Source of the DNA: SAR202 cluster bacterium Io17-Chloro-G6
Lineage (GTDB): Bacteria; Chloroflexota; Dehalococcoidia; UBA3495
Assembly (NCBI GenBank): GCA_002816585.1
Contig: MUCT01000010.1
Span: 1-64,000 of the forward strand
Direction: 5' to 3'
DNA: 64,000 nt
Below the pieces are notes generated by a model that saw nothing but the letters and a program-made list of their open reading frames with translations, did not search any database and was not told the origin of the DNA. Below, piece by piece: positions 10,634 through 18,490 of the stretch. Both the position numbers and the translations under genes were made by a program. The first letter of the stretch is position 1, and every line of letters begins with the position of its first letter.

Positions 10634-12241
10634 ATGGTTAAGATGACCGGCGGCCAGGCGTTGGCCAAGTCCCTATACCGGGAAGGTGTCCGGGTGATAT
10701 TCGGACTGCCGGGGGTCCAGCTTTACCACATGATGGACGGGCTGTACGACGAGCCGGGGATCCGGTTCATCACCGTCCGCCACGAGCAGGCGACCGCCTA
10801 CATGGCCGATGGCTACGCCCGTGCCAGTGGAGAAGTTGGTACCGCGCTCATGGTGCCGGGACCAGGCCTGCTGAACGCCTCGTCTGGCATCGCCACGGCT
10901 TATTCCGCTTCCTCGCCGGTGTTGGTGGTCTCGGGCCAGATCGAGCGTGACGAAATTGGTGGCGACCGCGGCATGCTCCACGAGGTCAACGACCAGCTAG
11001 ACGCAATCAGACCCGTCACCAAATGGGCGCACCGCATAATGGACCCGGCCAAGGTGCCTGAAGCGGTCCACGAGGCCTTCCATCATCTCAAGAACGGCCG
11101 CCCCCGGCCGGTGGAGATCGAAATACCCCCGGAGACCTTGGCGGAAGTCGCCGAAGTGGAACTGCTTGAACCCGAAGCTCCCCGCGTCGTGGCAGCCAGC
11201 GCCGAGCAGATCAAAGCAGCCGCTGAAGCCCTGGCCGGCGCATCCAATCCGCTGATATGGGCCGGCGGCGGCGTGATCTCATCGCAGGGCTCGGAGGCTC
11301 TGACCAAACTGGCCGAGCACCTCCAGGCTCCGGTGGTGACCACCGCCGAGGGCAAGGGCGCCATATCGGACCATCATCCCTTGGCGCTGGGCGCGCTGTG
11401 GCTGCGCAACGACACCATCGCTAGAAAACAATTCGGGCACGACGTGATCCTGGCCGTTGGCACCAGGCTGGTCACGTCCCAATGGCTGGATGGTCAGCAG
11501 GTCGTCCAGATTGACGTGGACCCGGAAGAGATCGGCCGACATTACGAGAACACCCTCAGGGTGGAGGGTGATGCCCGCCTTACCATGGAAGGCTTGCTCA
11601 CCGCGCTATCAGCCAAGGGCAAAGCACGGGAAGACCGGACTGCCGAGGTGGCGGCGCAGAAGGCCCAGCGTTCCGATGACATCGTCAAGGTCGAACCCCA
11701 AGGGGAGTTGTTGGAAGCAGTCCGGAGAGCCATGCCCGAAGATAGCATATTAATTTCAGGCATGACCCAATTGGGTTATTACAGCCGGGCACACTACCCC
11801 GTCTACGAGCCCCGCACCTTCATCACCTCGTCCTACTCCGGGAATTTGGGCTACGCCTATCCCACCGCATTGGGCGCCAAGGTCGCCCAGCCAGACAAGG
11901 CTGTGGTCTGCCTTTCGGGAGACGGTGGCTTCATGTTCAACTCCCAAGAGATGTCCACCGCTGTGGCGCATAAGATCAACGTGGTGGCGGTGATTTTCAA
12001 CGACAATGCCTTCGGGAACGTGAAGCGCGACCAGATGAACCAATTCAACGGCCGCACCATCGGAGTGGAGTTGCACAACCCCGACTTCGTGAAGCTGGCC
12101 GAGGCCTACGGGGTCAAAGGATTCGTCGCCAACGGCCCGTCTGAGTTAGAGTCCACCCTCAAAGAAGCCCTGACTCTAGACTCCCCGGTGCTGATCGAGG
12201 TGCCCGTCGGCCCCATGCCGTCGCCGTTCTTCAAGGGGTAA
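10634..12241 (+). CDS. Thiamine-diphosphate-dependent enzyme (acetolactate synthase-like)
   Basis: A 535-residue enzyme with the three-domain layout of the acetolactate synthase/benzoylformate decarboxylase superfamily: the N-terminal PYR domain with the catalytic Glu in VRHEQATAYMADGYAR, a central domain (residues ~190-330), and the C-terminal PP domain with the ThDP/Mg motif GDGGFMFNSQEM ending in FNDNAFGN. It converts 2-oxo acids or acyl-CoA substrates. It lacks the features needed to choose between acetolactate synthase, oxalyl-CoA decarboxylase and sulfoacetaldehyde-type enzymes; no small regulatory ilvN subunit gene follows, which argues against a biosynthetic role. It lies directly upstream of the first UGSC selenoprotein gene, separated by a 13-bp hairpin. 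Confidence 0.85.
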   Translation: MVKMTGGQALAKSLYREGVRVIFGLPGVQLYHMMDGLYDEPGIRFITVRHEQATAYMADGYARASGEVGTALMVPGPGLLNASSGIATAYSASSPVLVVSGQIERDEIGGDRGMLHEVNDQLDAIRPVTKWAHRIMDPAKVPEAVHEAFHHLKNGRPRPVEIEIPPETLAEVAEVELLEPEAPRVVAASAEQIKAAAEALAGASNPLIWAGGGVISSQGSEALTKLAEHLQAPVVTTAEGKGAISDHHPLALGALWLRNDTIARKQFGHDVILAVGTRLVTSQWLDGQQVVQIDVDPEEIGRHYENTLRVEGDARLTMEGLLTALSAKGKAREDRTAEVAAQKAQRSDDIVKVEPQGELLEAVRRAMPEDSILISGMTQLGYYSRAHYPVYEPRTFITSSYSGNLGYAYPTALGAKVAQPDKAVVCLSGDGGFMFNSQEMSTAVAHKINVVAVIFNDNAFGNVKRDQMNQFNGRTIGVELHNPDFVKLAEAYGVKGFVANGPSELESTLKEALTLDSPVLIEVPVGPMPSPFFKG

Positions 12242-12343: not shown

Positions 12344-12877
12344 ATGGCCAAACTAATTGTCTTGGATCCAACTGTCCCGCCCAGAGAGATGTCCCAGCCC
12401 ATGGCTCCAGTCTTGGATGGCCTGGGTGGGAAATCCCTCGGTTTCCTGTGGAACAGCAAGCCCAACGGCGACCTGCTCTTTGAGCGGCTGGAAAAGCTCT
12501 TGCGAGAGAAATACGAAATAGCCGACGTCGTCTACAAGCGCAAGCCAACGGCCTCGCTCCCAGCCGTGGACTCGGTGATCGACGAACTCGCTGGGTCGGT
12601 CCAGGCGGCGATCGTCGGCCTGGCGGATTGAGGGTCCTGCACGTCGTGGAGTATCCACGACGCGGTGGAACTGGAAAAACGGGGCATCCGCACCGTGGTG
12701 GTGGGCACCGACCGATTCAAGCGTCTGGGCGAGCTTGAGCGGCTCTCCTTGGGAATGCCGGAACTGACCTTGGCCATCGCGGCGCATCCCTTTGGCGGAC
12801 TAAAAGCTGAACGACTCATGGCCAAGGCCGACGATCTGCTGGAACAAGTGGTCGAAGGCCTGACCGGCCGCCGCTAG
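12344..12877 (+). CDS. UGSC-family selenoprotein, read through in-frame TGA (copy 1)
   Basis: Two open segments in the same frame, 12344-12628 and 12632-12877, are split only by a TGA at 12629-12631. Read through, they give a 177-residue protein with U96-G-S-C99, in the context GLAD-U-GSCTSW-SIHDAVELEKRGIRT. A paralog at 16641-17210 has the same TGA at the homologous position with conserved sequence on both sides. A hairpin suitable as a SECIS follows 11 nt after the TGA. Proteins with this UGSC motif, with Sec or Cys in first place, are a known family of undetermined function; the U-x-x-C arrangement suggests redox chemistry. The N-terminal half (LGFLWNSKPNGDLLFERL) also aligns with the paralog. 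Read without Sec, the 95-residue product would lack the motif. A decayed gene is the alternative, but the paralog makes it unlikely. Confidence 0.88.
12642..12662 (+). promoter_or_regulatory. Candidate bacterial SECIS hairpin of UGSC gene 1
   Basis: A perfect 8-bp stem, cgtcgtgg (12642-12649) with ccacgacg (12655-12662), carries a 5-nt loop agtat. The loop starts 19 nt after the last base of the TGA. Bacterial SECIS elements lie just downstream of the UGA inside the coding sequence and present a G-U in the apical loop to SelB; both features are present. Confidence 0.75.
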
Positions 12878-12904: not shown

Positions 12905-12941
12905 GGGCGGCCTGAATTTGGGGCGCCCCTATCATTTTTTT
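12905..12941 (+). terminator. Weak terminator or attenuator between UGSC gene 1 and its partner
   Basis: A short stem gggcg (12905-12909) with cgccc (12924-12928), including the palindrome ggggcgcccc, is followed by tatca and then seven T (12935-12941). It ends just before the TTG start of the partner gene. Partial termination here would lower partner expression relative to the selenoprotein. Confidence 0.45.
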
Positions 12942-12959
12942 GTATCTGGGAGACACACT

Positions 12960-14000
12960 TTGGCCGATCTCCTTTCGGACCGCGTGGAAGTCGACGACGA
13001 TTTTGAGGCGGTGCAGAGCCTATATCTGGAGCGCGGCTGGACCGACGGCCTGCCCGTGGTCCCGCCGACTACTGAACGGGTTGAAGCCATGCTGGCGTCG
13101 ACTCCGATAGGGCCGCAGGACATCATCGGCGAGATACCGCCCAACTGGGGTTCGGCCACGGTGGAGAAGCTCGCGGTAAACGCGGTCATGGCCGGTTGCC
13201 GGCCCGAGTACCTGCCGGTGGTGATCGCCGCAGTCGAGGCCATGTGCGACCCGGTGTTCAACCTCTACGCCATCCAGGCCACCACCCACCCCTGCGCGCC
13301 GCTGATCATCGTGAACGGCCCCATCTGCGACGAGTTGGGCTTGCACGGCGGCTCAGGCGCCTATGGGCCCGGCTGGCAGGCCAACGCCACCATCGGCCGG
13401 GCGGTCAGGCTGGTGCAACTCAACGTGGGCGGCGCGCATCCGGGAGTCGGTGACATGTCCACTCAAGGCGCGCCATCTAAGTACACCTATTGCGTGGCGG
13501 AGAACGAGGCGGCCAATCCCTGGGAGCCACTCCACATAGAGCGGGGCTTCCGGGCCGGCCAGAGCACCGTTACCGTGCTGGCCGGTGAGCCGCCTCACAA
13601 CATCAACGACCATTCAGGCAGCAGCGCCGAGGACATCCTGACTATCATCGCCGGAGCCATCTCCATTACCGGGGCCAACAACGCCTATACCGGTGGCGAG
13701 ACTTTGCTGGCCCTGGGGCCGGAGCACGCCGCCACAATCGCCTCGGACGGTTTCAGCAAGAGGGATATTAGGGAGTGGTTACACAAGAACGCCCGCATAC
13801 CTCTGGAGCGTTACACCCACGAGACGATGATGGAGCGATTCCAGCGGATTCCCGACGGCCCGGTTCCCATGGTGATCGACCCAGACCTGCTGACGATCAT
13901 CGTCCTGGGCGGTCCCGGTAAACATTCGTCATGGGTGCCAACCTTCGGCGGCACAACCCACTCGGCGACCAGGGAGATTCGGACTGTGGAACGCGGCTGA
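12960..14000 (+). CDS. UGSC-associated conserved protein, function unknown (copy 1)
   Basis: A 346-residue protein with no recognised enzyme family. It is clearly paralogous to the protein at 17236-18279: shared blocks are GWTDGLPVVPPT (~26-37), AVNAVMAGC (72-80), a GPGWQANATIGRAV region (~136-149), YTYCVAEN (175-182) with NPWEPLH (186-192), and LGPEHA. Cysteines 80 and 178 are conserved between the copies and could be thiol partners of the adjacent UGSC selenoprotein; that is inference. No signal peptide or clear membrane segment is seen. A TTG start at 12960, eight bases after gggag, is preferred because the longer frame begins inside the preceding hairpin. It sits 82 nt downstream of UGSC gene 1. 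Confidence 0.8.
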   Translation: MADLLSDRVEVDDDFEAVQSLYLERGWTDGLPVVPPTTERVEAMLASTPIGPQDIIGEIPPNWGSATVEKLAVNAVMAGCRPEYLPVVIAAVEAMCDPVFNLYAIQATTHPCAPLIIVNGPICDELGLHGGSGAYGPGWQANATIGRAVRLVQLNVGGAHPGVGDMSTQGAPSKYTYCVAENEAANPWEPLHIERGFRAGQSTVTVLAGEPPHNINDHSGSSAEDILTIIAGAISITGANNAYTGGETLLALGPEHAATIASDGFSKRDIREWLHKNARIPLERYTHETMMERFQRIPDGPVPMVIDPDLLTIIVLGGPGKHSSWVPTFGGTTHSATREIRTVERG

Positions 14001-16640: not shown

Positions 16641-17210
16641 TTATGTGCCGGTGGTTAGGGCGCCAATTATCAGATGATGCAATTCCGTGGCCCGCTGGGC
16701 GACAAGTTCTGGCGTTATGCCGCCCAGGGGATGGGGGATGCCTAGAGGCTGAAAACCTTCCCGCCCAAATACCCTAGCGTGCCGATGTGCCGAGTTCAAG
16801 AACGGGTCGGTGCAGATGACGATAGTCGGGACTCCGCGGTTCTCCAGGGCCATGGCATCGTGCATACAGCACGCGGTGCAGGACCCTCAATCCGCGATGG
16901 CCGTGATCACAAAATCGCACCGGGAAGCCAGATCGTCGATGATATCGTCAGCGGCGGGCCGGGAATAAACATACTTATCGGCGGCGATGCCTTCCCGCAA
17001 TTCAAAGTCTTTTTCCAGCAGTTCCTTCACTCCTTGGAGCAGGAGGCTGGCGTTGGCTTTGCGGTTGCCCAGAAAGCCGCCGACCCGGCCGTGGATGGTC
17101 TCCAGACGCGGGGCCGGCCTCCAGCGGGAATAGGCCTCGGGGTCTATGGGTGAAAGCAGGCCCATCTCATCGAGGCGAGCCTTCAAATCTGCTCCGGGTG
17201 GGCTTACCAT
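16641..17210 (-). CDS. UGSC-family selenoprotein, read through in-frame TGA (copy 2)
   Basis: On the minus strand, a 107-codon segment (17210-16890) is followed by TGA (16889-16887) and continues in frame to 16641. Read through, this gives 189 residues with U108-G-S-C111 in the context AIAD-U-GSCTACC-MHDAMALENRGVPT. Flanking residues match copy 1 (AD-U-GSCT, HDA, LE-RG), and the N-terminal GGFLGNRKANASLLL also aligns. This copy has two further cysteines, C114 and C115, after the motif. A hairpin with a GU loop lies at exactly the same distance from the TGA as in copy 1. The gene starts 25 nt after the partner gene's stop, with aaggaag before the ATG, so the two are likely one operon. The reaction is unknown; a thiol/selenol redox role is inferred from the motif. 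Confidence 0.87.
16859..16873 (-). promoter_or_regulatory. Candidate bacterial SECIS hairpin of UGSC gene 2
   Basis: Read on the minus strand: cgtgc (16873-16869), loop tgtat (16868-16864), gcacg (16863-16859). The loop begins 19 nt after the last base of the TGA, identical to copy 1, and the loop again has the form NGTAT. The stem is shorter (5 bp against 8), but the conserved geometry supports a SelB recognition element. Confidence 0.68.
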
Positions 17211-17235: not shown

Positions 17236-18279
17236 CTAAGCCAGTTCTATCTTTCGGGTGACCCGCCGGGAGCCCCAGCCGGGAAGATAGACCGAATGAG
17301 GACCGCCGCGGCCACCGGCCACCATGATGTGGATGCGGTCTGCGGCCCGTACCACTGGGACCATCTGGTCGTCATCGTTTGGATCCACGAACCGGGGCCA
17401 AAAATGTCCTCGCTGGGCGTCGCCCTGGGGTGGTCCTCCATGTTTCAGAGCTTTGACCGGCTTCCTGGCGTGTTCGAATAGAAACTGTCGGATGTCTTGC
17501 TTGCGCCAGCCGCCGTCGCTAAGGAAGCGGGCGTGTTCCGGGCCGATGGCCACGAAGGTGTCGCCCATCACGTACATCTGTACATTGCCCAAAGTGCACA
17601 TCGTGTCGGCCAACACCGTCAGAAAGTCTCTGGGGTCGTTGGCGTGGTACATGATGTTATGGGGAGCCTCAGCCGGAAAGACGGTCACGGCGCTGTCCGA
17701 CGGATCCAACCCGGCGTCGGTGTGCAGGGGCTCCCAAGGATTGGCATCCTGGTCCTCCGCGACGCAGTAGGTGTAGGCGCCGGGATGGCCAAAGGTGGCT
17801 TTGTTGGTCTCTCCGGGAATGGCCCCACCAAGGTTGACCAGGGCCAACTTGACGGCCCGGCCGATGGTGGCGTTGGCCCGCCATCCTGCTCCAAAACAGT
17901 TGTAGCCGCCGTTGATGTCCAACTCTTTAACTATCGGGCCGCTGACGATAACCAACGGCGTGTGAATTCCGGTGGAGCACATGACACCGCGAAGATTGAA
18001 GCGGTCGTCCATCATCGCCTCGATGGCGGTGATGACCACCGGCATGTGCTCGGGCAGGCAGCCGGCCATCACCGCGTTCACCGCGATACGTTCGACGGTC
18101 GCCTTACCACCCAACGGAGGGAGTTCAGCAATAATCTCCGATGCGTCCCGGCCAGTGGATTCGACGAACTGCTTGACCCGGCTTTCGGTGGGAGGGACCA
18201 CGGGCAGACCGTCGGTCCAGCCGGTTTCAAACATCAATTCAATGGCGTCAGCGAGACCAATGGCGTCGGAGGAGACCAT
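17236..18279 (-). CDS. UGSC-associated conserved protein, function unknown (copy 2)
   Basis: A 347-residue paralog of the protein at 12960-14000. Shared blocks are GWTDGLPVVPPT (~20-31), AVNAVMAGC (67-74ish), a GAGWRANATIGRAVKL region (~130-145), YTYCVAED (~169-176) with NPWEPLH, PHNI and IGPEHA. Cysteines at 74 and 172 match those of copy 1. No catalytic domain is recognised. It is the first gene of a minus-strand unit that continues with UGSC gene 2 (25 nt away), the NHL protein, the LLM enzyme and the thioesterase. The ATG at 18279 is used; a GTG five codons upstream (18294) is the alternative start. Confidence 0.8.
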   Translation of the reverse strand: MVSSDAIGLADAIELMFETGWTDGLPVVPPTESRVKQFVESTGRDASEIIAELPPLGGKATVERIAVNAVMAGCLPEHMPVVITAIEAMMDDRFNLRGVMCSTGIHTPLVIVSGPIVKELDINGGYNCFGAGWRANATIGRAVKLALVNLGGAIPGETNKATFGHPGAYTYCVAEDQDANPWEPLHTDAGLDPSDSAVTVFPAEAPHNIMYHANDPRDFLTVLADTMCTLGNVQMYVMGDTFVAIGPEHARFLSDGGWRKQDIRQFLFEHARKPVKALKHGGPPQGDAQRGHFWPRFVDPNDDDQMVPVVRAADRIHIMVAGGRGGPHSVYLPGWGSRRVTRKIELA

Positions 18280-18490
18280 GTTTGTTCTAAGCACCTCTGT
18301 TTCCGGTCTAGGGCCTTCGTTTTACCGGGATGGGGTCAAATGATGGGCGCACGCGGCCAGCGGATGGGCTGTTGCGAGTGTAATCTGGGTGCCATTTGCT
18401 GTCAACGCGTTCCAGGGTTGGGGAAGGGGTGGATGGGGAGGATGGCCGAACGAGGACCGAAACGAGGATTGATGATGTTTCGTATGTTGG

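Follow-up and report, generated by a model that had tools for sequence, protein, structure and literature searches.

Reading frame and family of the UGSC genes

In a 64,000-nucleotide stretch of DNA from SAR202 cluster bacterium Io17-Chloro-G6 (hereafter the window), a standard reading splits one gene in two at a TGA codon, which raises the question of whether this codon is a stop or encodes selenocysteine (Sec) and, in the latter case, with which partner and in which reaction the protein might act. The frame begins with ATG at 12344 on the forward strand, continues through the TGA at 12629-12631 and ends with TAG at 12875-12877, and the protein, denoted as UGSC 1 (12344..12877), comprises 177 aa with Sec as residue 96 and U-G-S-C at residues 96-99, just as the preliminary description had read it. 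Because another in-frame TGA lies two codons before the ATG with only TGC between them, 12344 is the furthest-upstream start possible. A paralog carrying TGA at the same position had also been placed about 4 kb away, and we located it as UGSC 2 on the reverse strand (16641..17210, 189 aa), with the Sec codon at 16887..16889 as residue 108. The two proteins are 33% identical overall, their TGAs fall in one alignment column, and identical residues flank the TGA on both sides (ADUGSCT, HDA, LE, RG, HP and GG), as had been claimed.

Both proteins have the UxxC motif with Sec and exceed the curated cut-offs of PF24696 (25 bits) and NF041046 (125 bits), the profile scores being 158.3 and 129.7 bits for UGSC 1 and 156.2 and 139.2 bits for UGSC 2. 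In the Global Ocean Sampling set, the family ranks among the major selenoprotein families, and the accessible part of the paper on that set counts 255 members with Sec and 21 with Cys (PMC2398784). Published numbers elsewhere are modest, a table row giving 26 and 33, which presumably stand for organisms and proteins, respectively (PMC5029168). In the portion available, a 2026 review describes the functions of UGSC and similar selenoproteins as largely uncharacterized (PMC13188914), which agrees with the earlier remark that the family is known and its reaction is not. Since 2008, UGSC has ranked among the most abundant selenoprotein families of the sea, and no reaction has been assigned to it. 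In the accessible text, the published account mentions only a UGSC/Unknown_1 fusion (in the 2008 paper, PMC2398784) and presumes a Trx-like fold, and it gives neither a partner gene as a rule nor a kinship to GrdB or PrdB. The first reading of a real Sec gene was thus correct and its family already known, while the regular partner, the kinship to selenoprotein B and the scale of multiplication appear to be new. In the open-access literature, we found no paper on SAR202 together with selenoprotein and only single mentions of SAR202 together with selenocysteine, and the only match for Chloroflexota with selenoproteins and selenocysteine deals with another subject.

A comparison of UGSC 1 with viral contigs found no relative, and a sequence search of the PDB with UGSC and its companion (described below) gave nothing convincing, the best match (E 0.0012) being a short, repetitive one to ArsA ATPase. 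As context only, a thiamine-diphosphate enzyme (10634..12241, forward strand, NF006122 638.8 bits) is encoded upstream of UGSC 1, and TPP-enzyme domains occurred in 5 of the 63 scanned neighbour proteins at the UGSC loci of relatives.

The in-frame TGA as a selenocysteine codon

To assess the TGA, we scanned a species-genome collection with patterns placed elsewhere in the protein, and the resulting 35 loci, all titled Chloroflexi/Chloroflexota, Dehalococcoidia or SAR202, carried TGA at the Sec column without exception. Since the patterns lay elsewhere in the protein, this is more than chance, in line with the earlier judgement that chance or decay is unlikely; in one locus (L035), the TGA is present but the reading leaves the family just after the motif. 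TGA was likewise found at this column in 119/119 non-redundant SAR202-type UGSC domains. The 120 database matches listed for UGSC 2, out of 240 and including the window's own protein, are 104-112 aa in length with at most 57% N-terminal coverage, so that they end at about the TGA. The suggested search for Cys homologs succeeded, as D-C-G-S-C, with Cys in the Sec column, was found in plasmid homologs of Natrinema, Halalkalicoccus, Arthrobacter and Roseovarius.

A true stop in a split or decaying gene would accord with the standard annotation of UGSC 1 and with the record of the Paracoccus plasmid pFER4, where UGSC is split likewise. Considering that the TGA is retained throughout the scanned loci and SAR202-type domains, that the sequence downstream of it is conserved, that the Cys homologs continue through the site and that a hairpin is preserved by codon changes (see below), such a stop is extremely improbable.

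The Sec machinery, which had been named as a further check, was sought in 14 relative genomes picked because they contained UGSC loci. Over the cut-offs, selA was found in 12 of them, selB in 12 and selD in all 14, and the selD of the relatives itself has an in-frame TGA. A tRNA-Sec match of 64-70 bits was obtained in 11 genomes, and the eight that we fetched have the anticodon tca according to ARAGORN, whereas the best matches of the three others, at about 47 bits, were not counted as tRNA-Sec because ordinary long tRNAs score alike. The genomes without a clear tRNA-Sec were G001, G010 and G011, the first two of which were also without selA and selB over the cut-off. A reading of TGA as a sense codon for another residue, such as Gly or Trp, in this lineage would account for the open frame and for nothing more, and Cys aligns with the TGA in other homologs while the relatives carry selA, selB, selD and tRNA-Sec. 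It is weakly opposed also by the 58 of 208 frames of at least 350 codons that end with TGA, an uncurated count over all six frames in regions of the genome G041 introduced below, and we regard it as hardly credible. From these sequence comparisons, the TGA of UGSC almost certainly encodes Sec.

Several plasmids carry further forms of the gene. In Paracoccus ferrooxidans pFER4 (L176:7733-9390), UGSC, recorded as two hypothetical proteins, shares a few bases with its companion, and both are flanked by selA and selB in a region of about 16 kb, which is possibly a mobile Sec island. The IncP plasmid p2-T1 of Acidovorax sp. T1 (L215, from 4995), typed as conjugative, encodes a fused Sec-containing UGSC-companion protein, the companion part of which is absent from a gene table that is itself incomplete. 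A plasmid of Sporomusa termitida (L219:5377-7101) encodes a fused UGSC-companion protein in which Met occupies what appears to be the Sec site (G-D-M-G-T-S), so that it is a natural variant with neither Sec nor Cys.

Copy number

The 14 relatives contain 4-12 UGSC copies each, and all listed copies among the 106 matches have an in-frame TGA, one of them two. In a class-wide draw, with up to 16 UGSC matches scored per genome, UGSC was present in 61 of 197 genomes, in 60 of them over the cut-off, and again all matches listed have TGA. The genome G041 (a Chloroflexi MAG, HYX92, 5.0 Mb) yielded 208 UGSC candidates, and all of the 150 that were scored matched the family, 146 with an in-frame TGA (three with two) and four without. 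At about the site, two of the copies lacking the Sec codon, L247:7000-7503 and L248:2294-2785, have G-W-S-G and G-C-S-G. On a single G041 contig of 350,501 bases, we counted 25 UGSC domains, each of which has TGA, together with 24 companions; the nearest paralogs are 32-73% identical. Because 25 UGSC genes so divergent lie on one contig, strain co-assembly does not explain the count. No further genome of the genus turned up when G041 was checked at that level. The selA (568 bits) and selB (353 bits) genes of G041 are on one contig; tRNA-Sec was not found among the 150 of 734 first-look candidates that were scored, the best match being a tRNA-Ser according to ARAGORN, which found no tRNA on one whole G041 contig and 60 kb of another.

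The largest bacterial selenoprotein gene sets given in the available part of the 2026 review number 57 and 63 (PMC13188914). Should these copy numbers prove right, some Chloroflexota have well over a hundred selenoprotein genes that are overlooked or annotated as broken hypothetical proteins, and the true ceiling of the bacterial selenoproteome is more than twice the published one. Large catabolic paralog families, namely enolase, flavin monooxygenase and dioxygenase, are described from related SAR202 bacteria in the accessible portions of PMC6946804 and PMC10444878; the UGSC-companion pairs resemble them in expansion but are selenium-dependent, and the string 'selen' is absent from the main text of both papers as available.

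A hairpin downstream of the TGA

The check for a bacterial SECIS, which had also been suggested, turned up a recurrent hairpin with compensatory changes at nt 17-31 past the TGA, although no Rfam family matched the UGSC sites. The hairpin, a putative bacterial SECIS apex, has a six-pair stem and a three-base loop. In UGSC 1, it spans 12645..12659 on the forward strand (CGUGGA-GUA-UCCACG, with G/U at nt 23-24), and in UGSC 2, it spans 16859..16873 on the reverse strand (CGUGC-UGUAU-GCACG), with the innermost pair open. Over the 119 non-redundant SAR202-type sites including those of the window, 694 of 714 pair cells are standard, compared with at most 491 when the partners are slid.

At pair 21-27, 69 of the 119 sites have C-G and 48 have G-C, and the swap is made via whole codons (TGC..GTG, TGG..ATC and TGG..CTC), whereby C-S-V, W-S-I and W-G-L are exchanged. 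Residues 6-8 after Sec are accordingly C-S-V, W-G-L or W-S-I in the relatives, and in the window they are W-S-I and C-C-M. Both inner pairs are intact in 106/119 sites, compared with 54.0 (sd 4.8, max 69) in 2000 shuffles of the 3' codons, a shuffle that leaves the relatedness among the sites in place. The co-change of these three residues to preserve the hairpin is a clean case of an RNA constraint shaping a loop adjacent to the active site.

G and U are found at nt 23-24 after the TGA in 107 of the 119 sites, in the same register as in E. coli fdhF, the sequence of which we confirmed; in the fdhF hairpin these two bases are presumably contacted by SelB. SelB would then read the UGA of UGSC as Sec aided by the hairpin just 3' of it. 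The folding-energy z-scores averaged -0.83 over 64 sites versus -0.09 for an upstream control (negative in 49/64 versus 30/64) and were -2.1 and -1.7 at the window sites; since such scores are weak evidence alone, the case for the hairpin rests on the codon co-variation. The hairpin is less regular in G041, where at least five of the six pairs form in the fixed register at 43/75 sites and GU stands at nt 23-24 in 36/75.

The companion gene

Beside each UGSC gene of the window, on the same strand, lies a gene of an unnamed family of about 345 aa, which we denote as the companion. Companion 1 (12918..14000, forward strand) is read as 360 aa with an uncertain start, an alternative in-frame TTG at 12960 giving 346 aa, just as long as the closest homolog. 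Companion 2 (17236..18294, reverse strand) is directly upstream of UGSC 2 with 25 bases between them and is 45% identical to companion 1. Neither matched any family of Pfam or NCBIfam, and a scan of 29 members of the family gave six incidental Pfam rows with a best E of 0.0085; a protein search returned at least 7998 relatives. Near-invariant residues of the companion include a MAGC motif, the Cys of which is residue 94 in the 360-aa reading of companion 1, and a W-D-G / P-P segment.

With duplicates removed and within the stretch examined, a same-strand companion accompanies 105 of 119 UGSC domains of the SAR202 type, 76 of the 77 domains of G041 and all 6 plasmid domains, and it lies within 500 nt of UGSC in 89, 75 and 6 of these, respectively. 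Several of the misses are at contig ends or show a fragment only, and one locus (L129) has no companion within 2.5 kb. The order varies, either gene coming first, and true fusions, in which one frame runs without a stop between the domains, were found in 63/77 modules of G041, 11/119 of the SAR202 type and 1/6 on plasmids. Pairwise distances of UGSC and companion correlate at 0.94 over 105 SAR202-type pairs (maximum of 499 permutations, 0.07) and at 0.79 over 55 G041 pairs (maximum of 999 permutations, 0.18). Judged by this pairing and co-variation of the sequences, UGSC and companion very probably form an obligate pair. In G041, loci L229-L248 and L262-L277 mostly show the two fused in one frame with an internal TGA and interleaved with SBP_bac_5 genes.

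The model of the companion (mean pLDDT 79.1) gave only weak and mutually different structural matches, none of them confident. One of these, in which Foldseek weakly aligned the model with a subunit of fumarate hydratase (E 8.5e-4, TM 0.24), and the many near-invariant residues would suit a companion that is itself the catalyst, such as a lyase, hydratase or hydrolase, with UGSC maintaining or activating it or handling selenium, sulfur or a metal. However, the two proteins diversify in step, as is expected for two halves of one active site, and the Sec codon is kept in every listed copy of the 14 relatives and in nearly all scored copies of G041, so that we consider a catalytic companion served by UGSC rather improbable.

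Relation to selenoprotein B and the predicted fold

We compared UGSC with selenoprotein B of the glycine and D-proline reductases. With matches up to E 1 considered, TIGR01917 (selenoprotein B) was listed for 15 of 21 UGSC proteins, with 6.1e-6 as the best value, and PrdB was listed for 12 of 21, with 0.0017 as the best, and in a more divergent set of 30, seven match GrdB and eight match PrdB at E <=0.01. When a profile of 229 UGSC domains was compared with that of four full-length GrdB proteins from the same genomes, the probability was 94% (E 8.2e-8), and the alignment covers the C-terminal part of GrdB with Sec on Sec. In the controls, the best of 142 neighbour proteins reached 13% and the best of 60 column-shuffled GrdB profiles 2.2%. 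An earlier UGSC profile run against 6770 open frames placed GrdB in four of the top five non-UGSC places, with E values of only 0.04-0.2. PF07355 (GRDB) gave no row for UGSC 1 or UGSC 2 up to E 0.1 and is not among the six families matched by the 21 UGSC proteins up to E 1; its model stops at position 347, approximately at the Sec of GrdB.

The Sec domain of GrdB, GrdF and GrdH (PF07355, TIGR01917/01918) resembles UGSC in the U-G-x-C or S motif, a helix that ends in 'E..GIP' and is followed by a strand, and a C-terminal helix. In contrast, UGSC has about 175 aa and GrdB about 430, the N-terminal part of GrdB is missing from UGSC, and the companion is unrelated to GrdE. The companion as a GrdE homolog was rejected with a profile probability of 0.1%, and it gave no match to PF09338 (GrdE/PrdA-type). 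Since the companion has no similarity to GrdE, the subunit that normally pairs with selenoprotein B either is missing here or has been replaced, and because both the N-terminal part and the GrdE partner are lacking, UGSC is not a GrdB. PrdB (TIGR04483) and short PrdB-like selenoproteins from the same genomes are alike in having a UxxC Sec domain with no N-terminal GrdB part, and the profile kinship is weak (probability 70%, E 4.2e-5, for the short proteins). They differ in the UPxC motif of the copies that we read, and when 14 PrdB-like sequences were compared singly, 9 failed to outscore the best decoy. Taken together, these profile alignments make it probable that UGSC and GrdB/PrdB share a distant ancestry.

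Among the full-length GrdE-GrdB pairs of the relatives (L080-L083), GrdB has U-G-T-S in L080, L081 and L083, the second Cys being replaced by Ser. Many of the short PrdB-like selenoproteins with U-P-x-C (L084-L092, L094-L096, L098-L099) have an additional second domain downstream.

In the AlphaFold model of UGSC 1 (mean pLDDT 90.1), five strands alternate with five helices over residues 31-174, and Sec directly follows strand 3 and opens helix 3. The folds listed as structural matches to the model are Rossmann-like (flavodoxin, receiver, GTPase and others) and score similarly; thioredoxin folds are not among them. The model therefore argues against the thioredoxin-like fold presumed in the literature, although absence from the list is not proof. 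A general thiol-disulfide or peroxide-reducing selenoprotein of thioredoxin-like fold, with the companion as its protein substrate or regulator, would be in keeping with the UxxC motif and with the thioredoxin genes that adjoin two plasmid loci. Such a role is unlikely in view of the five-strand alpha/beta model with its Rossmann-like matches and the sequence kinship to GrdB/PrdB, and some 146 Sec copies of a housekeeping reductant in one genome would be hard to explain.

Proposed reaction

Glycine and D-proline reductases carry out a dithiol-driven reductive removal or opening of an amine, for which cleavage of a selenium-carbon bond has been proposed (PMC10298544, as far as available). The accessible part of PMC10838667 links cleavage of carbon-fluorine bonds to a protein resembling GrdB and describes substrate-specific sets of GrdB/GrdE genes, some of them near transporters. 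The UGSC-companion loci follow the same logic: their Sec domain belongs to that family, a second protein regularly accompanies it and diversifies in step, and genes for solute-binding proteins are interleaved with the loci of G041. Thioredoxin genes were seen beside two Cys-form plasmid loci only: an operon of trxB-trxA-companion-UGSC in Arthrobacter and companion-UGSC-trxB in Roseovarius. Of 129 neighbour frames of UGSC in G041, 79 were scanned and 49 of these were SBP_bac_5. A solute-binding protein (SBP) gene lies within 700 nt on the same strand in 55/77 G041 modules, which is partly expected because such genes are dense in this genome (69 in 350 kb).

The Sec domain of this family, the co-diversifying partner, the thioredoxin genes and the SBP genes of G041 led us to propose a dithiol-driven reductive cleavage of carbon-heteroatom bonds, for which, by analogy with the reductases above, we see the chances as evenly balanced. 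Starting from what was obtained by computation (the Sec coding, the hairpin, the pairing with co-variation, the distant homology to GrdB/PrdB and the multiplication), we infer complex formation, an electron donor, a bond type and substrates along the following lines. UGSC would be the counterpart, in free-standing form, of the Sec domain found at the C-terminus of selenoprotein B, with Sec at the start of a helix after strand 3 of a Rossmann-like alpha/beta fold and Cys three residues further on, and the companion, with its own near-invariant Cys, would be the obligate second subunit. The selenolate may attack an activated carbon of a small organic substrate sandwiched by both subunits, upon which the heteroatom group would leave and a Se-carbon or Se-S intermediate would form. 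This intermediate might be resolved by the Cys of UGSC and then by thioredoxin or another dithiol, and distinct paralog pairs would serve distinct substrates. For the reading as a whole, in which each locus is a two-component, thiol-driven selenoenzyme for reductive carbon-heteroatom cleavage with one paralog pair per substrate class, we lean slightly in favour. The partner, the kinship to enzymes of known chemistry and the thioredoxin operons of the Cys form make a two-subunit reductase testable, and the pairs look like a widely multiplied selenium-dependent enzyme that degrades small organic molecules.

Two observations make it less credible that the SBP neighbours reflect substrate specificity: the distances of UGSC and SBP do not co-vary in G041 (correlation 0.11, not beyond the permutation maximum of 0.17), and SBP genes are scarce around the SAR202-type loci (3 matches). 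The correlation between companion and SBP in G041 is weak (0.21 versus a permutation maximum of 0.13). That one selenoprotein-B Sec domain with a new partner became a combinatorial enzyme family of Chloroflexota, with more than 140 Sec copies in a single genome and each pair reducing a different imported molecule, is a tentative idea that we hold possible, with more doubt than belief. If true, no known selenoproteome would come close to it in size, and selenium would be a cofactor-scale need for the turnover of resistant organic matter. The UGSC regions of G041 also hold some anaerobic enzymes, including glycyl-radical, AFOR and CoA-transferase enzymes.
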